Origin: Gemmatimonadota bacterium
Lineage (GTDB): Bacteria > Gemmatimonadota > Gemmatimonadetes > Longimicrobiales > Gaopeijiaceae
NCBI GenBank assembly: GCA_028873595.1
Contig: JAPPOV010000033.1
Coordinates: forward strand, 233,165 to 297,164
Reading direction: 5' to 3'
Length of the DNA stretch: 64,000 nucleotides
The translations under genes and the position numbers were made by a program. Below the pieces are notes generated by a model, which was given only the letters and a program-made list of their open reading frames with translations, ran no database searches and had not been told where the DNA came from. This document shows, piece by piece, positions 20,504 through 35,386 of the stretch. Positions within the stretch are counted from its first letter, which is position 1; the number at the start of each line of letters is the position of its first letter.

Positions 20504-21211
20504 CTAGCTTCCGATTCGCTCCAGCGCTTCCGCGGCCGTCGCGTTTCCCGCGGCGGCCGCTTGTTCGTACCACGTTCGAGCGGTCTCGGCATCGAGTGGC
20601 ACGCCGCGACCTGCCTCGTACGCCTCGCCCAATCGCAGTGCCGGAATGACATCTCCGGCTCGAGCAGCGCGCAGCCACCATATAGCGGCCCTCGCATGGT
20701 CGACCTCGATGCCCCGACCGTCACGGTACATGTTGCCGACATTGTGCACGGCAAGAACATGTCCCCTGTGCGCCGCCTTCCGGTACCACCGCATCGCTTC
20801 GTGGTAGTCCTGCTCGACGCCGAGTGATTCGTCGTACGCCGTACCCATGAGGAACGCAGCTTCGACGTCCCCGTCGGCTGCGAGGTCACGAACTCGATCG
20901 ATAACCCGGGAGGCGACCTGCCGAGCATGATCAGGATCAACGGGGAACGTCATGCGACCCGTGGAGTGCACGCGGGCGATCCACATCGTGGCGAGGGCGT
21001 CGTTCGGGTTGGAGGCGGCGGCCTCGAGGAGACGGCGCGCCTCTGCGTCATCGACGTGTCCGGCAACACCCGTGTAGAGGTCGATGGACTGGAGCAACCG
21101 AGGGTCTGCCCCGGTTTCCTGGGCGGCCAGCGGGATGCCTGTCCCGACCAGGAGGATCGACGTCGCGAGGATCAGGGTCGAGGGTGCCGCCGATATCCTG
21201 GTCGTCCTCAT
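20504..21211 (-). CDS. Secreted Sel1-repeat protein
   Basis: 235 residues from the ATG at 21211, giving a signal peptide ending near PLAAQ. At least three Sel1-like repeats are visible in the second half: AAFLMGTAYDESLGVEQDYHEAMRWYRKAA, AVHNVGNMYRDGRG followed by AAIWWLRAA, and PALRLGEAYEAGRG followed by TARTWYEQAA. Sel1 proteins are solenoid scaffolds in envelope complexes. The ATG overlaps the stop of the FMN oxidase gene as ATGA (21208-21211), so the two should be translationally coupled and probably work in the same compartment. Any link to the amine dehydrogenase is inference from position. Confidence 0.85.
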   Translation of the reverse strand: MRTTRISAAPSTLILATSILLVGTGIPLAAQETGADPRLLQSIDLYTGVAGHVDDAEARRLLEAAASNPNDALATMWIARVHSTGRMTFPVDPDHARQVASRVIDRVRDLAADGDVEAAFLMGTAYDESLGVEQDYHEAMRWYRKAAHRGHVLAVHNVGNMYRDGRGIEVDHARAAIWWLRAARAGDVIPALRLGEAYEAGRGVPLDAETARTWYEQAAAAGNATAAEALERIGS

Positions 21212-22452
21212 GGCTCCGCGATCGTGTGCGGGCCGAGGTCCGCCAGCGATGGTGCACCGATGGCCCGCATCGTGATCTGCATCTCGCGCGTCAGAATATC
21301 GAGCGCGCGCTCCACGCCCTCCTGCCCGAATGCTCCGAGCCCCCACAGATAAGGGCGTCCCACGGCGACGGCTGTCGCGCCTCTAGCGATCCCCTTCACG
21401 ATGTCGCTACCTCGGCGGAATCCGCTGTCGACGACAATCGGAATCCGCCCGGAGACGGCTTCGGCGATCTCCGGCAAGGCGTCGATCGTCGCCTGTCCCG
21501 AGCCCTCAGCGCGCCCGCCGTGGTTGGAGACCCACACGCCGTCGACACCGTATCGGACGCAGAGCTCTGCGTCCTCAGCCGTCATGATGCCCTTGATGAT
21601 GAACCGCTGGTCGGTCGCGTCGCGAAGGCGTGGAATCGTTTCCCATGTCGTTGAACGTCCGAGGCCCGGGTCGGGCTCCCCGCGGGGCAGGCCCCGGAGC
21701 ATCGGCTTCGGCCCTCCGGCGCGACCTCCGGGAGTGTGGCAGTTCGTACACGTACGGTCGTCTGCACGACGGTAGCGATCGAGTGTCACCCGATTGCTGC
21801 CTCCCTGGAGGTCGACCGTGTACACGACAGTCGGACATCCTGCGTCCGCACTCCGCTGCATGAGTGCCGTCGCTCCTTCCCATGAACCCGGACCGACCGG
21901 TGCAAGGTACAGCTGGTACCACACCGGTTCTCCTCGGGCCTCGTTCACCTCTTCGACGGCAGTGGAACTCACCGTCGAGAGGGTCTGCAGGTGGGTCCGC
22001 GACGCAGCCGCTCGGGCCACGGCGAGCTCTCCATCGGCGTGGAAGGCACGCTGGCTTCCACACGGTGCGATCACGATCGGAGTTGGCCATGTTCGCCCGA
22101 AGAGATCCACGCTCGTCTCGAGATTCGAGACGTCAACGAGACGGCGGGCACGAAGTCGAAGGCGCTCCAACGCCGCCCGGTTGTTTGCGTACGTTTCTTC
22201 ACCGTCGACCCCGGTCATGATGTACCCGTAGTGAGCGGTCGGGACCGTCGCCTCGGCTACGCGCTGGAGGTCCCACACGTCGAGTGCGTCTTCGGCGGAC
22301 TGTACGATGTCGTCGAAGATCCGGCGCGGTGCCTCCTGTGCAATCAGTGGCTCGAGTGTTGCGAGTCCCCCGGCAGATGCGAGGAGAGGACTTGCAGCGA
22401 GCCAGCGTAGGAAATCACGTCTGCGAACATCGCGGGCGTCGGGTCGGTGCAT
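21208..22452 (-). CDS. Tat-exported FMN-dependent alpha-hydroxy-acid oxidase with internal CxxCH motif
   Basis: 414 residues from the ATG at 22452 (a GTG at 22488 is also in frame). It opens with a twin-arginine signal RRRDFLRWLAASP. The FMN-binding (beta/alpha)8 fold of LldD, glycolate oxidase and mandelate dehydrogenase is clear: QLYLAP-type strand around 180, Lys287 in IIKG, catalytic His311 and Arg314 in SNHGGR, and VDSGFRRG near 342. Between strand 4 and strand 5, in the mobile loop, is C235-T-N-C238-H239, a canonical c-type heme attachment motif (bases 21736-21750). Predicted role: periplasmic oxidation of a 2-hydroxy acid, possibly passing electrons through a bound heme. It lies 84 bases after qhpE and overlaps the Sel1 gene. 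Confidence 0.85.
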   Translation of the reverse strand: MHRPDARDVRRRDFLRWLAASPLLASAGGLATLEPLIAQEAPRRIFDDIVQSAEDALDVWDLQRVAEATVPTAHYGYIMTGVDGEETYANNRAALERLRLRARRLVDVSNLETSVDLFGRTWPTPIVIAPCGSQRAFHADGELAVARAAASRTHLQTLSTVSSTAVEEVNEARGEPVWYQLYLAPVGPGSWEGATALMQRSADAGCPTVVYTVDLQGGSNRVTLDRYRRADDRTCTNCHTPGGRAGGPKPMLRGLPRGEPDPGLGRSTTWETIPRLRDATDQRFIIKGIMTAEDAELCVRYGVDGVWVSNHGGRAEGSGQATIDALPEIAEAVSGRIPIVVDSGFRRGSDIVKGIARGATAVAVGRPYLWGLGAFGQEGVERALDILTREMQITMRAIGAPSLADLGPHTIAEP

Positions 22453-22536
22453 CGGAACGTCTCTTATCAGATCCGGATCGGCCGCCACCAGCGGCCCTTG
22501 ATCAAGGGGCCACGGTGCGAATCACGGCGGGCCACG

Positions 22537-23241
22537 TCAAATGTGGGTTCGCAGCATCTCGATGACGGCATCGGCGGAGCGAAGCTCGGGTACGTCGGCC
22601 ATGAGGCGGGCGATCAGGCCGGTCGCGTTCGCCACGGCGAAACTGATGCCGTACAGATTCTGCTCGACGGGGACTCCAGGGATAGGGCGCGGATAGGGAG
22701 ATGCGACGACTGCAGTCCCTCGAGGGAGCTCGATCAGCGCAAGCTCGTCGCGCGGCTGCTCCGGGTCGGCCACGACCCCTACCACACCGGGCAACGCACC
22801 GGGATACCATAGGGCGCCATTGTGCTGATGAGCGGAGACGATGACGGTGCCAGCCTCGAAGGATCGTTCGATCGCGGGTCCTAGCTCGGGTGCACGCAGG
22901 CGATTGGGTGTCCCCAGGCTCATGTTCACAAGCCGGATCCCGCGATCTACCGCCCAGTCGATTGCACGCACGAGGACCTCGACCGACGTCGAGAGCTCGC
23001 GCTCGAATACTTTCACTGCCCACAGCTCGGCGCGGGGGGCCTTCTCGTGGATCGCTGCTGCGGCGGCAGTTCCGTGCCCAATCCGATCGACGAAGTCGTC
23101 GAAGATCCCGCCTTCAAGGTCCAACCTCACGCCGCCGGCGACACCAGGGAGGTGTGGGTGCGGCACGTGCACACCGCTGTCGACGACCGCGATCGATACG
23201 CGGGGCGGCTCAGGTGGGGAGTCCGTCGACTCGAAGGTCAT
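22537..23241 (-). CDS. qhpE: QhpE: subtilisin-like peptidase of amine dehydrogenase maturation
   Basis: 234 residues from the ATG at 23241, which lies 32 bases after the qhpF stop; an upstream start would overlap qhpF. There is no signal peptide, fitting the cytoplasmic leader peptidase known from Paracoccus QhpE. The S8 triad is Asp21 (VDSG), His56 (GHGTA) and Ser200 (GISFA). The usual oxyanion-hole asparagine after AAG seems replaced: the equivalent stretch reads SAHQHNGALWYP. In the characterised system QhpE removes the leader from the cross-linked gamma subunit QhpC. Location directly after qhpF in the qhp operon supports this role. Confidence 0.88.
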   Translation of the reverse strand: MTFESTDSPPEPPRVSIAVVDSGVHVPHPHLPGVAGGVRLDLEGGIFDDFVDRIGHGTAAAAAIHEKAPRAELWAVKVFERELSTSVEVLVRAIDWAVDRGIRLVNMSLGTPNRLRAPELGPAIERSFEAGTVIVSAHQHNGALWYPGALPGVVGVVADPEQPRDELALIELPRGTAVVASPYPRPIPGVPVEQNLYGISFAVANATGLIARLMADVPELRSADAVIEMLRTHI

Positions 23242-23272
23242 CGTCTTGTCGTCACCAAGTGTGCGGTTGGAC

Positions 23273-25006
23273 TCAGCCCGCGAGCACGTCGAGGAAGAGC
23301 TCTCGGAATGCCGACCCCTCCCTCTCAAGCACTGTCGGGGGGCCGTCCTCCACGATTCGGCCCTTCTCCATCACGACGACGCGCTCCGCCTGTCGCGCAA
23401 GGTCGAGGCGGTGTGTGATCAGGATCGTGGTCCGCCCTTTCATGATGCGGTCATAGCCGTCAAGCACTGCGGCTTCGGACGAGGGGTCGAGGGCGCCTGT
23501 CGCTTCGTCCATCACAAGTATGGCAGGATCTGCGAGGAACGCCCGTGCGATCGCCAGACGTTGGCGCTCACCCGCGGAGAGCTGGCGTCCTCGCTCACCC
23601 ACCACGGTTCGAACACCGTCGGGCAACCGAGCGAGAAGTGATCTCAAGCCCGCCGCATCGATCGCCGTCATCACGTCGTCGTCGTTCGCTTCGGGATCGG
23701 CGTATCGCACGTTGTCCTCCACGCTTGCGTGGAAGATGAATGGATCCTGGGGAACGACACCGATGTGTCGCCGGACGTCTTCGAGCGAGAGCGCTGCCAG
23801 ATCCACGCCGTCCAGCAGCACACGACCCTCCTGCGGGTCCAGGTGGCGTTCGAGCAGGTCGGCCAGGGTGGACTTACCACTTCCGCTGGCCCCTACGATC
23901 GCCAGGACCTCTCCGCCCGGAATATGGAGGTCCACGTCGGAAAGGCCCTCCACCCCGCGGCCGAAGTCGAACGATATCGCTTCAAGCCGTATCTCCCCTC
24001 GGCACGTGCTCATGCGCTCGGGGGACGCGACCTCCACCACGTCCGGTGTGGCGTCGAGGACCTCGTGTACACGCACGAGGGAGGCTCGAGCCGTCGCGAG
24101 GTTCGTGTAGATGCCCATCAGTCCCTGGACCGGGGTCATGAGGCGCGCCTGATATGCCATGAACGCGACCAGCGTCCCCAGGGTCATGATCCCTTCGATG
24201 ACTCTGTACCCCCCATAAAGGAAGACCAGGGCCGTACCTGACGTCAGGAGAAGCCCAGGTAGCCCTCCCGCGACATACGTGTAGAGGCGCATCGACAGGA
24301 GTGCGTCGATGAAGGCGTCGTTCCGTCCGCGGAACCGCTCGACCTCACGGTTCTGCGCGTTCGCACCGACGACGGTTCGCATCCCCTGCAATGTTTCGAT
24401 CAGGAACGAGCCGATCTCCGAGCTGCGCTCCCGAAGCCTCGTAACCCGGACTTCCAACTCTCGCCGGTACCGGACGAGCGTGAAAAGCGAGGGCGGCACG
24501 ACCAGAAGACTGGCGAGGAAGAGTTTCCAGTCGAGGTAGATCAGCATCCCGACCGTGCCGATCAGGGCGATAACCTGTCCGAACCAGGACAGCGCAGCCT
24601 CCGAGACCACGCGCTGAATCTCTCCAATGTCTCCATTGATCCGGGTGACGATGTCTCCCAGTTGGGTACGTGCGTAGTACCGGGGAGAAAGTCTCTGCAG
24701 GTGTCGATAGAGATCCAGCCGCATATCGAAGAGGATGTCGGCAGATACCCGGGTGTAACGCATCCCACTGAAGACGTTCATGCCGAACGACACGAGGGGG
24801 ATCGCGATGAACAGCCCTACGAGCCGCAGAAGCAAGGAAAAGTCCTGCCCCAGAATCGCATCATCGACGAGCACCTTCGACAGGAAGGGCAGGACAAGGG
24901 ATAGCCCGGTCGAGAGCAGCGAGACGACCACCACCGGTACCAGAGAGCCCACGTATGGGCGCACGTACGCGAGGGCACGCTTGAAGTGGTCGTCGATGGG
25001 CGTCAT
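23273..25006 (-). CDS. qhpF: QhpF: ABC exporter of the amine dehydrogenase gamma subunit
   Basis: 577 residues. An N-terminal six-helix exporter domain (residues 1-310) is fused to an ATP-binding domain with Walker A GASGSGKST, signature LSAGERQRLAIARAF, Walker B ILVMDEATGALDP and switch ITHR. This is the homodimeric half-size exporter architecture. In characterised qhp clusters QhpF is the membrane transporter needed to move the matured gamma subunit to the periplasm. Context decides the assignment: it lies between qhpB and qhpE. Alone, it would be called only a lipid or peptide exporter. Confidence 0.88.
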   Translation of the reverse strand: MTPIDDHFKRALAYVRPYVGSLVPVVVVSLLSTGLSLVLPFLSKVLVDDAILGQDFSLLLRLVGLFIAIPLVSFGMNVFSGMRYTRVSADILFDMRLDLYRHLQRLSPRYYARTQLGDIVTRINGDIGEIQRVVSEAALSWFGQVIALIGTVGMLIYLDWKLFLASLLVVPPSLFTLVRYRRELEVRVTRLRERSSEIGSFLIETLQGMRTVVGANAQNREVERFRGRNDAFIDALLSMRLYTYVAGGLPGLLLTSGTALVFLYGGYRVIEGIMTLGTLVAFMAYQARLMTPVQGLMGIYTNLATARASLVRVHEVLDATPDVVEVASPERMSTCRGEIRLEAISFDFGRGVEGLSDVDLHIPGGEVLAIVGASGSGKSTLADLLERHLDPQEGRVLLDGVDLAALSLEDVRRHIGVVPQDPFIFHASVEDNVRYADPEANDDDVMTAIDAAGLRSLLARLPDGVRTVVGERGRQLSAGERQRLAIARAFLADPAILVMDEATGALDPSSEAAVLDGYDRIMKGRTTILITHRLDLARQAERVVVMEKGRIVEDGPPTVLEREGSAFRELFLDVLAG

Positions 25007-25088
25007 GGTCCGCTGGGCTTAGGCGTGCGCATGATCGAAGTGAGGTGATGCTCGACCCCGCTTCGGCTCACGCGTCCGAGGCGGGCGT

Positions 25089-26171
25089 TTACTCGCCGCC
25101 CGGGATGATCGCGATGTTACCGAGCGTCATGTCCTCGTCGAACTCGACCGTACGCAGGAGCGAGAACGTTTCCGCGTCATACACATCGATCGTATTGCCT
25201 GCGACATGCACATAGAGCTTGGACCCGTCGGCACTGACGTCCAGGCCCATTCGGGGCCGTCCTGCGAACGGTACGCGTCGGGTCACGACCTCTTCGACGA
25301 GATCGAACTCCCAGAACTCGTACGCCTCGATGGTCGTGTAGAGGGCGTACGCTTTTTCGCCGCCGGGCGCCATGGCAAACGCACTTACCGGTTCAGAGGG
25401 CCCCACCGTGTAGAAGTCCACTTCCTTCTCGGAGAGTCGGACCTCGGCGATGCCCATCAGGGTCCGGTTATGTACCGGATCCCGGATGCGCATCAGGTTC
25501 GTCGCTACGCCCTCGTCATCGTACGTCTGCGAGTCGGTACTGAAGCTTGGACGGCCAAGGCCGGGTTCGAAAGGATTCGAGACTTCCCAGCGGTCCTCCT
25601 CCTCGTACGTGTCCGAGTCAACGGCGATGATGTCGTTCGTGTAGAAGTAGAGCGTTTCCCCATCCGGTGAGTAGCGAAACCCGACTCGATCCCGCTCTTC
25701 GCCGTCCGGCCACGGGATCGTGTCCGTGACCGCTTTCGTGTTCATGTCGTACTCGAGGATGAAGGGCCCCTCGACCAGGTAGCGGTCGATGAGTTTCGTG
25801 TGGCGGCGCCCGAAGATGACGGCCTTGTCTTCCGATGGATGCGGAGCGAAGCCGTCGATGCGGAACGTCGTATCTCCCTCGGAGAGCACATGCTCATCGA
25901 TCACCCGGCGAGCGACGATGTCGACGACCTGAATGTGCTCGCCGGAGGCGTCACCCACGTAGAGCCGCGTCTTGGTCTCGTTGAGTTGGACGCGGTTCGG
26001 GATGATCCGATTCATCTGGATGCGATCGATGATCTCTTCGGAGGCCTCGTCCCAGACGAGCATCTCGTCGGTGTACGTCGAGATGTACCAAGTGGCGGTC
26101 TGAGCCACGGTACCGGTCGGAATGACTCCGAGAGCGATCGCCGCGACGGCGGCGTAGAGGGTCGTTCGCAT
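25089..26171 (-). CDS. qhpB: QhpB: beta subunit of quinohemoprotein amine dehydrogenase
   Basis: 360 residues, signal peptide ending near GTVAQ (residue 24). The body is a seven-bladed beta-propeller with repeats such as GFRYSPDGETLYFY, GGEKAYALY and GLDVSADGSKLYVHVAGNTIDVYD, matching the 40-kDa beta subunit of quinohemoprotein amine dehydrogenase, which surrounds the gamma subunit at the active site. It starts 13 bases after the qhpC stop and is followed 82 bases later by qhpF. It contains no heme motif, as expected. Function is periplasmic, as part of the alpha-beta-gamma heterotrimer. Confidence 0.92.
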   Translation of the reverse strand: MRTTLYAAVAAIALGVIPTGTVAQTATWYISTYTDEMLVWDEASEEIIDRIQMNRIIPNRVQLNETKTRLYVGDASGEHIQVVDIVARRVIDEHVLSEGDTTFRIDGFAPHPSEDKAVIFGRRHTKLIDRYLVEGPFILEYDMNTKAVTDTIPWPDGEERDRVGFRYSPDGETLYFYTNDIIAVDSDTYEEEDRWEVSNPFEPGLGRPSFSTDSQTYDDEGVATNLMRIRDPVHNRTLMGIAEVRLSEKEVDFYTVGPSEPVSAFAMAPGGEKAYALYTTIEAYEFWEFDLVEEVVTRRVPFAGRPRMGLDVSADGSKLYVHVAGNTIDVYDAETFSLLRTVEFDEDMTLGNIAIIPGGE

Positions 26172-26184
26172 GAAGTCGTGCGGC

Positions 26185-26544
26185 CTAGGGAAAGATCAAG
26201 TCGAGCTTGCGCCAGTCCTTCTGAGCCGACGCACACTTACCGGTCCAGTCCGGCGCGTGGTTCAGCTGATCCGGCACGTGCGCCGGCCAGAAGCAGGAGA
26301 TGTGGCAGTCGAAGATGTCTCGCTCCACAGGCTGACACAGGCCAGCCGTGCCACCACGGTTGTCGACTTCCCATCCGGGTGAGAACTGCAGCGAGCAGCC
26401 CAGCGGGTAGTGCGGCCCATCCTGCTCGTGCGGCGGGGTGCGCAGTCCTACGACGTCGAGGTCGCCACGCGCCTTCGCGGCTTCGTGCTCGAGGTAAGCC
26501 TCGATACGACCCGCCTTCTGGTTGATCGGTTTGAGTCGTTTCAT
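26185..26544 (-). CDS. qhpC: QhpC: gamma subunit carrying cysteine tryptophylquinone
   Basis: 119 residues. From Cys50 onward it matches the mature gamma subunit. Numbering Cys50 as Cys7 of the Paracoccus protein places every cross-link partner exactly: Cys7-Glu16 (CSLQFSPGWE), Cys27-Asp33 (CQPVERD), Cys41-Asp49 and the cofactor pair Cys37-Trp43 (CHISCFW). So a cysteine tryptophylquinone and three thioether bridges are predicted. Residue 42 is Phe rather than Trp, and an extra fifth cysteine occurs at residue 104. Ahead of the core are about 43 residues (KPINQKAGRIEAYLEHEAAK and following), serving as the leader for QhpD and QhpE. The start overlaps the qhpD stop as ATGA (26541-26544). Confidence 0.95.
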   Translation of the reverse strand: MKRLKPINQKAGRIEAYLEHEAAKARGDLDVVGLRTPPHEQDGPHYPLGCSLQFSPGWEVDNRGGTAGLCQPVERDIFDCHISCFWPAHVPDQLNHAPDWTGKCASAQKDWRKLDLIFP

Positions 26545-28013
26545 GCGTCGAATCGCTCCAGGAACTTCGGGTTCTTTTCTGCCAGGGCTCCGTAGATCTC
26601 CAGGCAGGTATGGGTCCAGCTCCGGACCCAGGTGCAGTAATGCAGATTCGCGTGCGACGAGTCACCATACTGGACGTGTGCCTCGTGATAGCAGCCGCCG
26701 GAGCAGATCGGTCGGGCCCAGCACGTGTGGCAGTCGGTCTTCTCGGCGATGTGGTGATCTACGAGGAACTTCTCCTGCTTTTCGCGATCGACGCCGTCAG
26801 CCACCGAGCCGATCGTGTGTTCGGGCGAGCCGGCGAAGCGATGGCACAGCGACACGTCACCGTCCGTGGCGACTCCGAGCAGGCCGAGCCCCGCGCCACA
26901 CCCGTACGCCTTGCTGACACCCTTGTGGATCTCTTCGATCGTGTCCGTCACGTTCGTGAAGCCGTGGTGTTCGTCCCGAAGCGCGTGTTCGAGCCACTCG
27001 GCCGCGAGCTCCTCGAATTGTTCGAGCATCGAATCTTTCGAGTCCGGCGTGATTGCGTAGTCCCGGTGCTCCTGCGTTGTGACAGGTGCGAGCCCGACCT
27101 CACGGAAGCCGAGTTCGTCCGTCAGGTGACGGTAGATCTCGAGCACGTTCAGGTGTTTCTGCGTGAGCGTGACACGGGCTCCGATGGGCCGTGACCGATG
27201 TGTCGCGATCAACTCCTTGATTTTTGGCAGAACGACGTCGTAGGTGCCACGCCCGTTGTGAAAGACGCGCAGGCCGTCCTGAACCGGTTTCGGGCCGTCG
27301 ATCGAGACGGTGACGCCGACGTCATTGTCCGCGAGCCACTGGATGATCTCCGGTTTCAACAGTGTCGCGTTTGTGGTAAGGCTGAAGGAGATCGTCTTGC
27401 TTTCTTCCGCCGCGCGCCGGCGCGCGTAGGCGACGGTCTTTTGAAGCACGGGAAAGTTGAGGAGCGTCTCTCCACCGAAGAACGTCAGATGCGCTTTGGG
27501 TTGGCTGCCCGACTGCCGGAGAAGGAACTCGACGCTCTCCTCTGCGGTGTCCTCGCTCATGAACTTCGGCTGACTCCCGTATTGCGTATCGACGATCTTG
27601 TCCTCGCCGTATTCGTAGCAATAGGTGCACGCCAGGTTGCACTTGTTCGTGACGTTCAGGACCATCGTGTTGAGCGGGAAATCCGCAGGAGGCAGGTCGT
27701 TCGGTGCCTCATCCTTGGGCGCGTCAGGTCCGCCCACGGCTCTGATCTCTGTCAGCTCTTCGACCGTCTCGAGAATACGATCGATGTCGAAGCGGTCGTT
27801 GAGCTCAGCGACCAGATCGTCCTCCGTTCGCGGCCCACCCTCGAGCGCATCGAGGATTGCGGAGCCGCAGTCGTCCATCCGAAAGATTCCGGCCGATGGC
27901 ACCATGTAGAGGAAACGTGCGCCGAATGCCTCGAACGGGTGGAAGTCCCGCAGGCCGAGAACCTTCGAGGCGCCCGTCGTATCAGAAGATCCGGCTACGA
28001 CAGGCGGCGTCAT
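26541..28013 (-). CDS. qhpD: QhpD: radical SAM/SPASM enzyme forming thioether cross-links in QhpC
   Basis: 490 residues. The radical SAM cluster motif is C125-x3-C129-x2-C132 (NKCNLACTYCYEYGE). A SPASM-type C-terminal region with Cys372, 390, 428, 431, 437, 441 and 460 should bind two auxiliary iron-sulfur clusters. The N-terminal 90 residues (LRDFHPFEAF... LEGGPRTEDDLVAELNDRF) form a winged-helix domain like the peptide-binding RRE of RiPP enzymes. In Paracoccus, QhpD makes the Cys-to-Asp/Glu thioether bonds in QhpC. The gene overlaps qhpA upstream (ATGA, 28010-28013) and qhpC downstream (ATGA), so enzyme and substrate are coupled. Confidence 0.95.
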   Translation of the reverse strand: MTPPVVAGSSDTTGASKVLGLRDFHPFEAFGARFLYMVPSAGIFRMDDCGSAILDALEGGPRTEDDLVAELNDRFDIDRILETVEELTEIRAVGGPDAPKDEAPNDLPPADFPLNTMVLNVTNKCNLACTYCYEYGEDKIVDTQYGSQPKFMSEDTAEESVEFLLRQSGSQPKAHLTFFGGETLLNFPVLQKTVAYARRRAAEESKTISFSLTTNATLLKPEIIQWLADNDVGVTVSIDGPKPVQDGLRVFHNGRGTYDVVLPKIKELIATHRSRPIGARVTLTQKHLNVLEIYRHLTDELGFREVGLAPVTTQEHRDYAITPDSKDSMLEQFEELAAEWLEHALRDEHHGFTNVTDTIEEIHKGVSKAYGCGAGLGLLGVATDGDVSLCHRFAGSPEHTIGSVADGVDREKQEKFLVDHHIAEKTDCHTCWARPICSGGCYHEAHVQYGDSSHANLHYCTWVRSWTHTCLEIYGALAEKNPKFLERFDA

Positions 28014-29716
28014 CGGTCACCCCCGACGGGACGTCGGCCCGTGTCGATCTCTGCCCAGGGCTCCCAGCGCATGTACAGCGGTGGCATCACGACGAGATGC
28101 GCGCGGGCCGACAGTTCGCGGTCACCCGAGCCGTAGGTGGCGACGACCCACACGTCACCAATGTTATTCCGCAGCCCCGATCGCTCCGGGTTCGGGCCAT
28201 CGTCGGCCGGCACGAAGGTCCCGTTCTGCAGAATTTCTCCGACGAAGTCGACGTCATCGTCACCGTAGGTGGCCGCATATTCTTCGATGTGCCAGTTGGC
28301 GGGAACACGACCCAGTTCCAAATCGTCGGCGGTGTTGGGTTCGCCATCGGGACCATCATCATACCCCCAGGCATCGAACGTCTCGTAGCCCTTGGGGAAA
28401 TGTGCCCCGCCTGTGCGCGCGGTGGCGATCCCGGGAGTGACAGCGATCCGATCGACGCCATCGTGGATCACCACAGCTCCCTCGGCGATTGCTCCATTGC
28501 TGAATAGATCACGTCCACCGACGTCCGCGTCGGCGTCTACCTGAAGCTCCACCGTAAGGGTGCCGTCGTTCGAGGTGCGTGTTGAACCCACCGTGATTCC
28601 CGCGCCGAAATCGAGTTCGCTCCCATCCGAGAGTTCCACGCCGTAGACGGTGACCTCGGTCGAGGCGCCTTGCTCCAGCGCACGCGGATAGACTCCGGAG
28701 ACGACCGTCCCACCGGTTGCCCGCTGCATCGAGATGTCCGGGCCGATCTCGTCATAATCACCTCGGAACCAGCGTCCCCACATCGACTGCTGGTCGCGCT
28801 CGACAAACATGACTTCGCGGAGTTCGTCGGCTGCGCCCGGGTTCGAGCGGCCGCGCCACTGGTACCCGGTGTAAACCATCGTACGACCGGTGCGCTGTAC
28901 CTCCTCGCCCGACTCGGCATACACGTACGAGGTGTTCGTCGTGAACGCGTCTGGATCGGAGGGGTCGGCAGTGACGGTCATCGTTCCGTACATCGCTCCT
29001 TTACCTGGATCATGCCCGGTGATCGTCCACGTACCGGTCAGTCGTGCGGGGCGTTTGGTGGCGGCCCATGCAGACCATTCCGATGTTTCAAGGGCGTAGA
29101 TGTCCGACAGGTGGTTGATTGCCCGCTCCATCGGGTGCCGCGGGTCATCCTGCTCGGACGCCGGCCCGGTATAACGAAACGCCTGCCAGTCGGATAATGG
29201 GTACAGCGCCCGATGCGTCGTGATCAGCAGGCCCCACTCCTCCTCGGTTCTGCGCTGCGTCATGACGCGGCCCATGGAGTGGCACTGGATACACGTGGTC
29301 TCGACGTCGGAATCCCCGTCCCAGTCATGGTCGTCACTTCGGCGCTCGATCTCGAACATGCCAGGCCTCAGTTCTTCGGGTGCGAGACCTTGCTCATTCG
29401 AGAGATACCGTACGATTTCCGCAGCGTCGGCCTGGTTCAGGCGTACACCATGGAGCGCCATCATCCGGCGGATCGACGTCTGCCAGCCCTCGGGCGTCTT
29501 CCGCATCCAGGAGATGCGTGACATGCGCCCCTGATCGTCTACTTCATGGCAGCGAGAGCAACGGTCGATCACCTTCTGGTTGGTGATCGGGTAGCCGTCA
29601 TCGACACGGATGCTGCCAGGTGACGTCCGAGACTGCGGGGCCGGACTCCACGCGAGCAGAACACCTGCGGTCGCGAGCCCTGCGAGCATGAGCGGGAAGC
29701 GGGCAGAAGACGCCAT
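28010..29716 (-). CDS. qhpA: QhpA: diheme cytochrome c alpha subunit of quinohemoprotein amine dehydrogenase
   Basis: 568 residues with a signal peptide (about 1-24). Two c-type heme motifs are present: C53-S-R-C56-H57 and C142-I-Q-C145-H146, as in the 60-kDa alpha subunit of quinohemoprotein amine dehydrogenase. The rest is beta-rich, fitting the three additional domains of that subunit. The hemes take electrons from the quinone cofactor of QhpC and pass them to soluble cytochrome c or a cupredoxin in the periplasm. AGGAG lies three bases before the ATG. A 141-bp gap separates it from qhpG upstream, so it may have its own promoter; downstream it overlaps qhpD. Confidence 0.94.
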   Translation of the reverse strand: MASSARFPLMLAGLATAGVLLAWSPAPQSRTSPGSIRVDDGYPITNQKVIDRCSRCHEVDDQGRMSRISWMRKTPEGWQTSIRRMMALHGVRLNQADAAEIVRYLSNEQGLAPEELRPGMFEIERRSDDHDWDGDSDVETTCIQCHSMGRVMTQRRTEEEWGLLITTHRALYPLSDWQAFRYTGPASEQDDPRHPMERAINHLSDIYALETSEWSAWAATKRPARLTGTWTITGHDPGKGAMYGTMTVTADPSDPDAFTTNTSYVYAESGEEVQRTGRTMVYTGYQWRGRSNPGAADELREVMFVERDQQSMWGRWFRGDYDEIGPDISMQRATGGTVVSGVYPRALEQGASTEVTVYGVELSDGSELDFGAGITVGSTRTSNDGTLTVELQVDADADVGGRDLFSNGAIAEGAVVIHDGVDRIAVTPGIATARTGGAHFPKGYETFDAWGYDDGPDGEPNTADDLELGRVPANWHIEEYAATYGDDDVDFVGEILQNGTFVPADDGPNPERSGLRNNIGDVWVVATYGSGDRELSARAHLVVMPPLYMRWEPWAEIDTGRRPVGGDR

Positions 29717-29857
29717 CAGCTCCTGATTGGTTCGAGGGAAAATGCTCTGTGAGAGACTGAGGGTCGCGACCGACTTTCGCCAGTCTTTCGTCGAGAATTC
29801 TCCGGCTGGCCCCCGGGGCTGTTCAGGGCACGGATGAGCTGGCCAAGCGGGTTCGCT

Positions 29858-31414
29858 TCAGTCGGTGGGCTCGCGATGTTCCAGTATCCCGGTCGCGAAG
29901 GCGGTCGACAGCGCGGTGAGGTAGTCCGGAAGTGTGACGGCAGGTCCGATCTCATTATACCTGGTCCATCCGTCGGGAACGCTCTCTTGTGAGGTGGTGG
30001 CCTCTAAGAGTTGCAAGAGGTCGACTCCGCGGACGTATCTCATCCCGGCAGGCCAGGAACTCGTAGCGAGACGTTGCTCCATCACGATGCGATGACCGGC
30101 GATCCCTGGTCCATCGAAGATGCGCAGTGTGGACCCGCGAACAGCGTTGAGCGTTTCCTGCGCGCGAATCGCTTCGAAGGCTCCGCGTACTTCTTCTTCC
30201 GGAACGTCCGAACCCAGGGCGTCCGGGTCCGAAGGTATGCTTGCCGGACTTCCTCCACGTTCAATCAGTCCACCCGCCTGGTGCGCGGCGCTCGATCGAG
30301 CGGTCCAATACTCCGAACCGTACGTATTGGCCGCCGAGGTGAAGAAAGGTGCGGACGCAGCACGATAGCGCCGATACACCTCACGCTCACGGGCGTCAAA
30401 GAAGTCGACCGCAGATTGCGTCATCTCCGGATCGATCAATGCGGTGTTCGCGACAATGCCGGCCAGCCAGCCGGACGAGAGAGCCTTCTTCACACCGAAC
30501 GACGACAGCGGGTCGATGAACGACCCGGCATCCCCCGCGAGGATCAGGCCCGGGCGCGCGTATCGAGTCGCTCGGTAAAGGGATGCTGGGCACGCCCAAG
30601 CTTCCCCGATGGGCTCCGCCCCCTCGCGGGATTTTCCGAGGTGCTCCGTCCGATCGAGCTCTCGATCGAGAATTCTGGAGAGTTCGTTACCCCCCAGCTC
30701 CTCCTCGCGCTGGTCGATCATCACAGTGTAGCAGCGCACGTCCATTGCGAGCGGGACAGACCAGGCCCACCCGTTGTGATACGATTCGATGAACGTCAGA
30801 TGCCGGTCCGCCTCCGGCCATCCACCCTTCCGTCCCCAGCGCCGGACGATGGCGAGTGTGGTGGTACTGCGATCGACCTCACGCCCCTCCGTCCGAGCGA
30901 TCAGCCCGTGGCGACCCGTGGCGTCGATCACCCAGGGAGCTGCGAGTGCCTGCTCTACACCTGGACCCTCGCACCGCACACGCCATCCACGCTCGGATTC
31001 ATGGGCCTGGCGGGCCGTATAGCCGTGCAACACGGTGACGCCGGCTCGTTCTGCGACCTCGAGGAGGACCGTTTCGAGTCCGGCTCTGTCGGTGTGATAC
31101 CCGGCGCTGTCCGGTCCGAAGGTTTCGGAGCGGATACCACCGCCGGCCCATCGGACGGAATTTCCGTGGTTCGGGTACAATCCGGCTGCGTCGATATCCC
31201 CCAGCGCGCCCAGTTCTTGGAGCACCCGTCGAGCCGAGGGAGGGATCGACACGGCGAGCGCACCGGTGACGGGAGCCGTGGGACTCACCAGCGCAACGCG
31301 GTGGCTCCGACGGGCGAGCAGCGTGGCAGCAGCGCAGCCGGCAGGACCGCTACCGAGAACGATTGCGTCGATGTTGGTCAGTTCGGAGCCGCGCAGGCAC
31401 ACCCGCCGCTGCAC
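29858..31414 (-). CDS. qhpG: QhpG: FAD-dependent monooxygenase of cofactor biogenesis
   Basis: 518 residues from a GTG at 31414; another GTG at 31402 and a CTG at 31381 are possible. The Rossmann motif IVLGSGPAGCAAATLLA near residue 20 and the second FAD motif LILAGDAGSFIDPLSSFGVKKAL near 300 place it among flavin-dependent halogenase-like monooxygenases, and its whole-length pattern fits QhpG. In Paracoccus QhpG dihydroxylates the gamma-subunit tryptophan to create the quinone. It is just upstream of qhpA and its start overlaps the FmdB-like gene by about 37 bases, so it is coupled to that gene. In Paracoccus qhpG lies downstream of the structural genes; here it is upstream. Confidence 0.9.
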   Translation of the reverse strand: MQRRVCLRGSELTNIDAIVLGSGPAGCAAATLLARRSHRVALVSPTAPVTGALAVSIPPSARRVLQELGALGDIDAAGLYPNHGNSVRWAGGGIRSETFGPDSAGYHTDRAGLETVLLEVAERAGVTVLHGYTARQAHESERGWRVRCEGPGVEQALAAPWVIDATGRHGLIARTEGREVDRSTTTLAIVRRWGRKGGWPEADRHLTFIESYHNGWAWSVPLAMDVRCYTVMIDQREEELGGNELSRILDRELDRTEHLGKSREGAEPIGEAWACPASLYRATRYARPGLILAGDAGSFIDPLSSFGVKKALSSGWLAGIVANTALIDPEMTQSAVDFFDAREREVYRRYRAASAPFFTSAANTYGSEYWTARSSAAHQAGGLIERGGSPASIPSDPDALGSDVPEEEVRGAFEAIRAQETLNAVRGSTLRIFDGPGIAGHRIVMEQRLATSSWPAGMRYVRGVDLLQLLEATTSQESVPDGWTRYNEIGPAVTLPDYLTALSTAFATGILEHREPTD

Positions 31415-31614
31415 CCCTGAAATCCGGGATCACGGGTGGTGACAGGGACAGGGGCGCTCATGATCCGCTGAACAGGTGCATTCGCCGGCGTGTCGCCCAC
31501 GTCGACCGCGGCTCGGTCGGCCACCTGTCCCCATGTGGTGAGCTCTTCGCTCATTCCGTGCCGAACCTCGAACGTCTGACCATTCGCGGTGCACATGTAT
31601 TCGTAGTAAGGCAT
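31378..31614 (-). CDS. FmdB-like small protein with degenerate zinc ribbon
   Basis: 78 residues. MPYYEYMCTANGQTFEVRHGM matches the opening of the FmdB regulatory-protein family, which normally has two CxxC pairs for zinc. Here only the first cysteine of the first pair (Cys8) remains; the second pair is absent (WGQVADRAAVD in its place). A different cysteine cluster, CSGGCACA, sits at the C-terminus. It may bind a metal differently or none at all. The frame is open to 31893, but that extension overlaps the TPR gene and is arginine-rich. It overlaps the qhpG start, so it is part of the qhp transcription unit. Confidence 0.7.
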   Translation of the reverse strand: MPYYEYMCTANGQTFEVRHGMSEELTTWGQVADRAAVDVGDTPANAPVQRIMSAPVPVTTRDPGFQGCSGGCACAAPN

Positions 31615-33440: not shown

Positions 33441-34697
33441 ATGCCCCGTGACGAACGTCCGAAGCTCTCACGCCGGGCCTGGATCACGACAACCTCCGGT
33501 GTGATTGCTGCCGGACTCGTGAAAACTCAGGCCGATGCGATTCATCTGGGCGCTCAGGAGGCCCCCATCGACCCCACGAAGGTACCGGGCAGGCTCGTGT
33601 CCGAGCTTGGCAGTCGAGCTCCGGCCGAAGAGCCGAAGCGCCTTGTGCGGGCCGAGGCGCTCTCGTCGTCGTCACGGACTCCACTCGCGGATCTCATGGG
33701 AACGATCACCCCGGCGGATCTGCACTTCGAGCGACATCACGCCGGCATCCCCGATATCCAGTACGAGGACCATGAACTCCTCGTGCACGGAATGGTCGAG
33801 CGCCCGACGGTGTTCCGCATGTCTGATCTGATGCGGTATCCACAGGTCTCCCGCATCCGGTTTCTCGAGTGTTCTGGCAATGGTGGCGGTGTGTACAATC
33901 GTGACCGGATGCCGACGGAGGTTACGGTTCAGGCGCTCGACGGTTTGCTGAGTACGAGTGAATGGACGGGTGTCGCGGTCTCGACGATTCTGCGTGAGGT
34001 CGGCGTGCGGCCCGGCGCGAGCTGGATTCTGGCCGAGGGTCGGGACTCCGCTGTCATGTCACGCAGCGTTCCGCTCGACAAGGTGATGGAGGATTCAATC
34101 CTGGCGTACGGCCAGAATGGAGAACGGATTCGGCCCGAGCAGGGCTACCCCCTGCGTCTCTTCAACCCCGGGTACGAGGGCAATACATCGGTGAAGTGGC
34201 TGCGCCGCATCGAGGTCACGGACCGTCCGACCCACACGCGCGACGAGACCTCCAAGTATACGGACCCGCTTGGGGATGGAACTGTACGCCAGTTCAGCCT
34301 CGTCATGGACGCGAAGTCGGTGATCACCTTTCCGTCGTATCCGTACGTTCTTCCGGAGGCGGGCTGGTGGGAGGTTCGTGGTCTGGCATGGTCGGGTCGC
34401 GGTCGTATCACTCGGGTGGAGGTCAGCACGGACGGGGGACGGAGTTGGGTTGACGCCGCGCTCCAGGGTCCGATTCTGGACAAGTCCACAGTACGGTTCC
34501 GCCACCTCTTCGACTGGAATGGTCGAGATACGCTAATTCTCAGCCGGGCCACGGATGAGACCGGGTATGTGCAGCCGACGGTTGAGCAATTATGGGAGGC
34601 CCGCGGCACCCGTACGTCCTATCACCAGAACCATCAGCGGGCCTGGAAGATCGCACGTACCGGGGAAGTGACGTTCGGGCTGGGAGAGCTGGTATGA
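33441..34697 (+). CDS. soxC: SoxC-like molybdenum sulfite/sulfane dehydrogenase subunit
   Basis: 418 residues with a twin-arginine signal (SRRAWITTTSGVIAAGL, residues 10-26). The molybdopterin domain has Cys144 in FLECSGNGGG, the expected molybdenum ligand, with the surrounding FRMSDLMRYP and YEGNTSVKWLRRIEV of the sulfite-oxidase fold. A C-terminal dimerisation domain (FPSYPYVLPEAGWWEVRGLAWSGRGRITRVEVSTDGG) follows. SoxC works with a c-type cytochrome to oxidise sulfane sulfur or sulfite in the periplasm. GAGGAG lies nine bases before the ATG. The stop overlaps the cytochrome gene as ATGA (34694-34697). Without other sox genes nearby, sulfite dehydrogenase activity is as likely as a full Sox role. 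Confidence 0.88.
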   Translation: MPRDERPKLSRRAWITTTSGVIAAGLVKTQADAIHLGAQEAPIDPTKVPGRLVSELGSRAPAEEPKRLVRAEALSSSSRTPLADLMGTITPADLHFERHHAGIPDIQYEDHELLVHGMVERPTVFRMSDLMRYPQVSRIRFLECSGNGGGVYNRDRMPTEVTVQALDGLLSTSEWTGVAVSTILREVGVRPGASWILAEGRDSAVMSRSVPLDKVMEDSILAYGQNGERIRPEQGYPLRLFNPGYEGNTSVKWLRRIEVTDRPTHTRDETSKYTDPLGDGTVRQFSLVMDAKSVITFPSYPYVLPEAGWWEVRGLAWSGRGRITRVEVSTDGGRSWVDAALQGPILDKSTVRFRHLFDWNGRDTLILSRATDETGYVQPTVEQLWEARGTRTSYHQNHQRAWKIARTGEVTFGLGELV

Positions 34698-35386
34698 GGC
34701 TGCCAGCGACCGACGTCGGCCTGGTGTCGGCCGTATCGAGGGAGTGGGGCTCTCCGCTTCGGACTGCTGCGCGACGCGCAGCCGGCCTCTGTCTCGTAGC
34801 TGGTCTCTTGGCCGCGTGCTCCGATGGACATCGCGGAGCTACGGGCGGTGCCATGGCGCCCGACGAGGTTGCGGTGGCGGGCACGGCCGAGGGCCTTCCC
34901 GCGCACGCCCCCGACCGCTTCGGATTCGGGACCGAAGCATCGGACGCCCGTGTTGCACTGTGGGACATTGATGTACGACCGGATGGCCAGGGTCTGCCGC
35001 CCGGTCGTGGATCCGTTGCCCAGGGGCGTGACGTCTTCAACATCCACTGTGTGGCGTGCCACGGGCCCACGGGAACCGAAGGGCCGAATGACCGCCTTGT
35101 CGACAGTGAGCAGTGGGACGCCGTACCGAGCACCCGCACGGTTGGGAATTACTGGCCGTATGCGACGACGCTCTACGATTACATCCGCAAAGCCATGCCC
35201 CAGCTCACGCCAGGCATTCTCTCAGATGACCAGGTCTACGCCGTGATCGCGTACATACTCTGGATGAACGAGATCGTCTCGGAGGACGCCGTGATGGACG
35301 CCGAGACGCTGCCGGCTGTGATCATGCCCGCGCGAGACAAGTTCGTGGTAGACGATCGGATCGGAGGAACCGGGCCAATCCGGTAG
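34694..35386 (+). CDS. SoxD/SorB-like monoheme cytochrome c, probable lipoprotein
   Basis: 230 residues from the ATG at 34694. A lipobox (LLAAC, Cys42) suggests lipid anchoring, with an unusually long pre-sequence. One heme motif is present, C119-V-A-C122-H123, with a probable Met ligand in KAMPQLTPG. The sequence FNIHCVACHGPTGTEGPN and YWPYATTLYDYIRKAMPQ resembles SoxD domain 1. Classical SoxD has two domains and about 360 residues, so this is a short monoheme version, and may instead act like SorB. It is translationally coupled to the SoxC-like gene and should take electrons from it. Confidence 0.85.
   Translation: MRLPATDVGLVSAVSREWGSPLRTAARRAAGLCLVAGLLAACSDGHRGATGGAMAPDEVAVAGTAEGLPAHAPDRFGFGTEASDARVALWDIDVRPDGQGLPPGRGSVAQGRDVFNIHCVACHGPTGTEGPNDRLVDSEQWDAVPSTRTVGNYWPYATTLYDYIRKAMPQLTPGILSDDQVYAVIAYILWMNEIVSEDAVMDAETLPAVIMPARDKFVVDDRIGGTGPIR

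Follow-up and report, generated by a model that had tools for sequence, protein, structure and literature searches.

The window, i.e., the complete 64,000-nucleotide stretch of DNA analyzed here, corresponds to positions 233165-297164 of a contig in a 3.2-Mb, 52-contig Gemmatimonadota assembly that is 94.6% complete. It contains seven consecutive open reading frames (ORFs) on the minus strand, together spanning 22537-31414, that form a qhp cluster in the order qhpG-A-D-C-B-F-E, the genes for quinohemoprotein amine dehydrogenase (QHNDH) and its maturation. The alpha subunit, which has two c-type heme motifs, is encoded by qhpA (28010-29716); it is predicted to be secreted and its N-terminus looks signal-like by eye, as does that of the sequence-divergent, beta-propeller-type beta subunit encoded by qhpB (25089-26171). 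The precursor of the gamma subunit, with the site of the cofactor cysteine tryptophylquinone (CTQ) and the cross-link residues, is encoded by qhpC (26185-26544). Located between qhpA and qhpC is qhpD (26541-28013), encoding a maturase of the radical S-adenosylmethionine (SAM)/SPASM type, which would make Cys-Asp/Glu thioethers in QhpC. The first gene, qhpG (ORF 29858-31414, with a GTG at 31402 as the likelier start, giving 29858..31402), encodes a flavoprotein that is predicted to form the CTQ precursor as a peptidyl-Trp dihydroxylase. The last two genes are qhpF (23273-25006), encoding an ATP-binding cassette (ABC) exporter predicted to carry processed QhpC into the periplasm, and qhpE (ORF 22537-23328, with an ATG at 23241 as the likelier start), encoding a subtilisin-like protease that is expected to cleave off the leader of QhpC. 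We conclude with good confidence that the cluster encodes a working QHNDH, including its maturation, periplasmic assembly and amine oxidation, that belongs to a second, uncharacterized deep clade of these enzymes, which we named clade II.

The original prediction had described the full QHNDH system of an apparently non-proteobacterial bacterium, with its seven components on one strand and overlaps between qhpA and qhpD and between qhpD and qhpC. This is borne out by the profile searches, residue checks and two predicted structures described below, by the phylum of the genome, and by the ORF coordinates, which give 4-base overlaps at 28010-28013 and 26541-26544. Related genomes were also checked for gene order, as had been proposed, and the order G-A-D-C-B-F-E recurs in related Gemmatimonadota. 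Because of this recurrence and because the contig, of 401 kb, extends well beyond the cluster on both sides, a chance arrangement or misbinning is very unlikely. The heme-binding alpha domain and the gamma subunit each gave a single match in a profile search of the window's genome. Scans for promoters and terminators gave results at and below chance level, respectively.

All three structural subunits could be assigned. QhpA scored 461.5 bits against TIGR03908, above the NCBIfam cut-off of 274.35, contains the Pfam heme-binding domain and domains II-IV, and matches 1jmx_A and 1jju_A. The cysteines of its two CXXCH motifs are kept in all ungapped rows, both of clade II (58/58) and of clade I (38/38), the clade that includes the characterized enzymes, and the alignment of QhpA rows contains no conserved cysteine beyond these four. 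QhpC scored 120.2 bits against NF037958 (cut-off 50) and matches 1jju_C and 1jmx_G. The residues of the three thioether pairs (C7-E16, C27-D33 and C41-D49, mature gamma numbering) and of the CTQ pair (C37 and W43) are all present in the window gamma and are kept in 109/109 aligned gammas, i.e., profile matches of at least 100 bits. For QhpB, the predicted structure has the QHNDH-type beta-propeller fold. No LodA-type domain was present among the Pfam matches of the seven proteins, so that the cluster does not show the hallmark of the single-polypeptide CTQ oxidases LodA and GoxA.

The maturation proteins were analyzed in the same way. QhpD scored 552.3 bits against TIGR03906 (cut-off 453), and ten of its cysteines are kept in 104/104 rows. 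The best match of QhpE is NF049966, the QhpE model, and the Asp/His/Ser triad of this protease is present in 82/83 rows, the remaining row being gapped. QhpF matches MsbA-like ABC exporters in general and has ABC_membrane and ABC_tran domains as well as Walker A, signature and Walker B motifs; there is no qhp-specific model for it, and we assigned it to the system by position. The best NCBIfam match of QhpG is the QhpG model, and W181, W183 and D260 are retained. The heme sites, the residues for cross-links and CTQ, the triad of the protease, the motifs of the ABC exporter and the beta fold, along with the components themselves and the clade II placement, are supported by sequence or fold.

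To place the cluster, we constructed trees of QhpD (72 of 104 rows) and QhpA (71 of 97 rows), and a rooted QhpD tree of 54 rows (49 of the 104, the divergent locus L225 described below, and four outgroup rows). Rows were dropped by hand and were mostly near-duplicates and fragments. Several of the named loci are duplicates of unnamed ones (L106/L063, L108/L068 and L110/G256), and the Acidobacteria and Planctomycetota samples used below include some genomes of earlier loci. The QhpD and QhpA trees are congruent, and both part clades I and II at a support of 100 in the Shimodaira-Hasegawa-like approximate likelihood ratio test (SH-aLRT). In the rooted tree, clade I has a support of 100/100, clade II of 97/93 and the Gemmatimonadota rows of 96/98. 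Clade I comprises Paracoccus, Pseudomonas and relatives. The window belongs to clade II, which contains Gemmatimonadota, Acidobacteriota and Planctomycetota as well as some Alphaproteobacteria. The latter include Sphingomonadales, Acetobacter and Phenylobacterium, whose rows nest within the clade next to Acidobacteriota; for Sphingomonadales and relatives, a transfer into the Alphaproteobacteria is the likelier direction, judging from the trees. A phylogeny of QhpA and QhpD against proteobacterial sequences had been suggested as a check, and it places the window within clade II and outside any recently transferred proteobacterial clade; all three trees speak against a recent import from proteobacteria, which was rejected. 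By its sequence, the window cluster is a complete QHNDH cluster of the deep, uncharacterized clade II. In the 72-row QhpD tree and the QhpA tree, the Gemmatimonadota grouping is interrupted by L098 alone, a metagenome bin labelled Gammaproteobacteria whose qhp genes are near-identical to those of the Gemmatimonadota locus L065 and which is probably misbinned or mislabelled.

The gamma subunits of clade II contain a fifth cysteine, C61 (C104 of the precursor in the window, encoded by the TGT codon at 26233..26235 of the minus strand), which the original prediction had not mentioned. It lies in a C-X5-D-W motif in 95/95 distinct clade II gamma cores (155 loci) and in 0/46 clade I cores (46 loci); by alignment, position 61 is Ala in 1jju_C. 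The cores were collected with a pattern that required the known cross-link residues, and their clade was assigned by residue 42, W42 denoting clade I. Three of the 99 loci of the gamma search were missed by this pattern. For L050, only the last part of gamma was found, with C61 and D67; L215 has a variant gamma; and the weak gamma match of L216 is interrupted by a stop, no qhp gene being detected when the surrounding stretch (L226) was searched with profiles. Both C61 and D67 are present in 25/25 loci of the Acidobacteria sample and in 15/15 strict-motif loci of the Planctomycetota sample, a few of whose genomes overlap with earlier loci, and C61 is absent in 8/8 loci of the Pseudomonas putida phylum sample. 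The Asp of the motif, D67 (GAC codon at 26215..26217, minus strand), is found in 95/95 clade II cores and is followed by W68; in clade I, position 67 is Asp in 40 cores and Asn in six (Fisher p 0.00096, uncorrected for relatedness).

What might C61 do? In the characterized gamma subunit, each of the cysteines C7, C27 and C41 is bonded to an acidic residue, at +9, +6 and +8, respectively, and C37 is linked to W43, and PapB, a relative of QhpD, makes six Cys-Asp bonds in one peptide, according to PMC8172795. If the window gamma is processed alike, C61 would have no conserved cysteine of the complex left as a partner, and D67, at +6, would have the spacing of the C27-D33 pair; together with the six bonds made by PapB, this favors a fourth thioether made by QhpD. 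We put the chances that C61 and D67 form this fourth Cys-Asp thioether at about even, based on these sequence patterns.

One alternative is that the enzyme is an ordinary QHNDH with the textbook three thioethers and CTQ, in which C61 is a free or buried packing thiol and clade II is merely a distant branch. This explanation is possible, and we doubt it without dismissing it. D67 is also common in the clade I cores, which do not have C61, and it may thus be kept for another reason; moreover, clade II descends from a single ancestor, and the gain of C61 thus counts as one event. These points also weigh against a fourth thioether. However, C61 is invariant in all clade II cores while few positions of this region are (between 50 and 75, only W57, C61, D67, W68 and F75), and QhpB identity to the window protein drops to 21% inside the clade. 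In addition, an invariant free thiol is unusual in the periplasm. It is unlikely that C61 instead forms a disulfide, whether by joining the gamma subunits of two trimers in a dimer or by bonding to a periplasmic protein encoded elsewhere. Such a bond would be compatible with the sequence, and 18 beta rows of a sphingomonad-type subgroup have a Cys pair of their own, but the conserved cysteines of the clade II alpha are those of the hemes, no Cys column of the clade II beta exceeds 30% of the rows, and the window beta contains no cysteine at all. Cross-linking of C61 to D72 or D36 rather than to D67 is improbable as well. Both positions differ between the clades, which also speaks against the C61-D67 pair: residue 36 is Asp in 95/95 clade II cores and Gly or Ala in 46/46 clade I cores, and position 72 is acidic in 95/95 versus 15/46. 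Still, acceptors in the known QhpD links (PMC8172795) lie at +6, +8 or +9, a spacing matched by D67 and not by D72 (+11) or D36 (-25). Finally, it is quite improbable that the product of the cluster is not an amine dehydrogenase but a relative containing CTQ or dihydroxy-Trp that serves some other purpose in the periplasm: the aldehyde dehydrogenase and regulator neighborhood is nearly absent in clade II and the residues around CTQ are changed, but the full alpha/beta/gamma set is present with heme and CTQ residues intact.

An additional cysteine of QhpD, C465, present in 60/66 clade II rows and 0/38 clade I rows, was considered as the cause of an extra link. It was rejected, as this residue is Gly in six Planctomycetota/Vicinamibacteria-type rows (L114-L119) whose gammas retain C61. 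A separate observation concerns locus L225 (9679-14366), from a 12.3-Mb genome of the Planctomycetota sample, which contains a QhpA-like (794 aa), QhpD-like and gamma-like set on a long branch outside both clades. Its gamma has seven cysteines, with W42, a C61-like Cys and further Cys-acid pairs. Since this deeper lineage combines W42 with a C61-like Cys and more Cys-acid pairs, the gamma with three bonds known from textbooks could be a reduced version. A literature survey, made mainly at title level, gave no pointer to clade II or to a fifth gamma cysteine, which does not establish that they are absent in print.

The working of the clade II enzyme can be proposed from its characterized relatives, from which every chemical step, the export and the substrate class are borrowed; their chemistry is described in PMC7876137 and PMC8172795. 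QhpC would be made in the cytoplasm, where QhpD would use radical SAM chemistry to cross-link Cys7-Glu16, Cys27-Asp33 and Cys41-Asp49 and, specifically in clade II, might add the Cys61-Asp67 thioether. QhpG would then dihydroxylate Trp43, QhpE would cut off the leader and QhpF would export the gamma subunit. Bonding of Cys37 to Trp43 would give the quinone CTQ, and gamma would join the di-heme alpha and beta-propeller beta subunits in the periplasm. The assembled enzyme would convert primary amines into aldehydes and ammonia, with electrons passing through the hemes to a periplasmic carrier.

Several observations weigh against a working QHNDH with this maturation pathway. The score of QhpB (37.8 bits) is far below its NCBIfam cut-off (223.2), and those of QhpG (209 bits, cut-off 240) and QhpE (152.5 bits, cut-off 165) are just and slightly below theirs. 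In the window QhpG, Glu42 is changed to Val, and Arg47 and Arg70 are replaced; in the characterized QhpG, changes of Glu42, Arg47 and Arg70 led to loss of activity or weakened binding, according to PMC7876137. Position 42 is Glu in 24/32 ungapped clade II rows and Val in seven, and positions 47 and 70 also change between the clades. The predicted QhpG structure is closer by Z-score to halogenases than to 7ctq, which Foldseek ranks third. Moreover, with the thresholds used, no qhpG was detected in 31 of the 66 loci of clade II. Matches away from the locus were found in 12/12 genomes without a locus qhpG, but the control matched in 14/14 genomes, and consequently only the two matches above the cut-off count. 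The gamma residues D12 and D39, invariant in clade I, are not retained in clade II, a single query detected no aldehyde dehydrogenase relative beside the window cluster, and biochemistry of a clade II member was not found in the literature consulted. Since the window beta, QhpG and QhpE fall below the cut-offs of their models, annotation may miss such clusters.

Related to QhpG, residue 42 of gamma is Trp in 46/46 clade I cores and Phe, Tyr or Gly in 95/95 clade II cores, the residue having also served to assign the cores; in the QhpG docking model, it sits in a pocket (PMC7876137). Four sphingomonad-type operons (L051:11904-12914, and also L075, L081 and L085) have a very divergent QhpG-like ORF between qhpB and qhpF, which scored 61.3 bits in L051.

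The surroundings of the clusters differ between the clades as well. Relatives of the Paracoccus AraC regulator were found near 10/38 clade I and 0/67 clade II loci, those of the Pseudomonas sigma-54 regulator near 12/38 and 1/67, and those of aldehyde dehydrogenase near 23/38 and 1/67, counts that are based on single query proteins, include the query's own locus and come from loci of which many are cut short. With these limits, clade II operons seem to be differently regulated and coupled. No regulator had been visible to the original prediction, and indeed one AraC and one sigma-54 query detected no relative in the window; as AraC relatives lie near only 10 of the clade I loci, we did not treat an adjacent QhpR-type regulator as defining. 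Taken together with C61, we consider it an evenly balanced proposition that clade II QHNDHs, of at least Gemmatimonadota, Acidobacteriota, Planctomycetota and some Alphaproteobacteria, are a biochemically distinct class, which would have a fourth QhpD-installed thioether, C61-D67, besides CTQ and would operate without the textbook amine-sensing regulator and aldehyde dehydrogenase.

The qhp systems of Paracoccus denitrificans and Pseudomonas putida (1jju and 1jmx; clade I) share with the window the alpha, beta and gamma subunits, the two c-type hemes, the gamma cross-link and CTQ residues, and the QhpD and QhpE types, along with candidate QhpF and QhpG proteins. Compared with Paracoccus pantotrophus and Pseudomonas nitroreducens, the window QhpD is 37-38% and QhpA 31-33% identical. 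The window gamma differs from that of clade I by C61, D36, R32 and F42 in place of W42, and the window cluster by the lack of an adjacent regulator or aldehyde dehydrogenase in the single-query searches. Clade I members have W42, lack C61 and group with Paracoccus and Pseudomonas; the window has F42 and C61 and groups with clade II. The qhp genes of Novosphingobium, Sphingobium, Phenylobacterium and Acetobacter are of clade II and encode the same C61/D67 gamma, QhpD of Novosphingobium sp. RL4 being 51% identical to that of the window. These alphaproteobacterial loci are unlike the window in the divergent QhpG-like ORF of L051 and in the extra beta Cys pair. Beyond QHNDH, the freyrasin ranthipeptide maturase PapB is a QhpD homologue, and the window QhpD scored 286.8 bits on the PapB model; the substrate of PapB is a short peptide, and no dehydrogenase is known to be involved. 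Methylamine and aromatic amine dehydrogenases contain tryptophan tryptophylquinone (TTQ) instead of CTQ and are not known to have a di-heme alpha subunit.

QHNDH is a model for protein-derived cofactors, of which molecular detail comes from the Paracoccus and Pseudomonas enzymes alone, as far as the consulted literature goes. A clade with an extra invariant cysteine offers a natural test of how QhpD chooses its Cys-acid pairs and counts cross-links, and may yield protein scaffolds that are more heavily stapled. Its distribution further points to amine oxidation in the periplasm of additional phyla.

One claim about gene order had to be corrected. According to the original prediction, Paracoccus and Pseudomonas have qhpG downstream of the core, but we found it upstream in 4/4 Paracoccus loci, where it is divergent, and in 5/6 Pseudomonas loci (it was not seen in the sixth). 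Of the 38 clade I loci, 18 have qhpG upstream and on the strand of the core, seven, the four of Paracoccus among them, have it upstream in divergent orientation, and five have it downstream; no qhpG was seen in eight. This locus comparison rules out that an upstream qhpG is unusual. The exact order of the window is present in 22/66 clade II loci and in 7/38 clade I loci, among them those of Azospirillum and Stappia. The qhp operon is reported in more than 1300 species with varying gene order and strand (PMC7876137), its carriers are both Gram-negative and Gram-positive (PMC8172795), and qhpA is named as a search model (PMC6662431). Occurrence beyond proteobacteria is thus already published; newly described here are the two deep clades and the fifth gamma cysteine of clade II.

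Within Gemmatimonadota, presence of qhp is patchy: gamma was found in 75/395 genomes, counting the window's own, and in 10/13 relatives of the same genus. It was detected in 24/347 genomes of the phylum of Acidobacteria genome L099, in 17/343 of the phylum of Planctomycetota genome L119 (16 above the cut-off) and in 7/398 of the phylum of Pseudomonas putida genome L124. In two Gemmatimonadota loci (L097 and L100), the qhp genes are separated by kilobases that contain long ORFs on the opposite strand; the one tested, from L097 (1078 aa), encodes an ankyrin-repeat protein. A single-contig relative (L062, genome G017) has qhpC and qhpB without qhpA or qhpD in the 19.5 kb read. Two nearby qhp structural sets are present in Marinobacterium, Amphritea and Aliarcobacter loci (L127, L129, L130 and L154), one set lying partly inside the locus in L129 and L154.

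Plasmids of Bradyrhizobium septentrionale (L227:2610-6217), Mesorhizobium sp. AR10 (L228:2474-6108) and Mycetohabitans endofungorum (L230:2303-6166) contain a QhpD-like radical SAM gene and a gene for a flavoprotein. The flavoproteins, annotated as halogenase or monooxygenase, exceed the QhpG cut-off (280, 285 and 274 bits, respectively), and no QHNDH alpha or beta subunit is annotated in the 8-kb stretches. The preceding gene gave a weak LodA_C match and encodes a gamma-like motif, LCxPWQxDYxxCACYYWAxxRPD. By sequence, these plasmid genes resemble those for a LodA-type CTQ protein that is split and whose maturation would depend on enzymes of the QhpD and QhpG types. A literature search for LodA together with QhpD surfaced nothing except PMC7876137.

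Several neighboring genes were considered as partners of the window cluster. An ORF for an FmdB-type zinc ribbon (31378..31614, minus strand; TIGR02605, 31.4 bits, cut-off 31.3) overlaps the start of qhpG. Directly downstream of qhpE lies a minus-strand gene (21208-22488) for an FMN-dependent alpha-hydroxyacid dehydrogenase-like protein with an RR-type N-terminus by eye. As core partners, the zinc ribbon, the FMN-dependent dehydrogenase and an M20-type hydrolase were rejected, as they occur in only seven, six and five of 67 clade II loci, respectively. The dehydrogenase loci are all of the window's genus, and the FmdB loci (counted with short ORFs filtered out; one more is in L058) are all of this genus or of one other genus of its family. 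Neighbor clustering yielded no general clade II partner: the widest cluster (five lineages, five loci) resembled antisense frames, and neither an amidohydrolase-like secreted protein (four lineages, six loci) nor a short-chain dehydrogenase type (four lineages, four loci), both recognized by eye, was general. Elsewhere in the window, on the plus strand, a molybdopterin oxidoreductase gene is followed by an overlapping c-type cytochrome gene (33441-35386), which may encode a periplasmic dehydrogenase pair.

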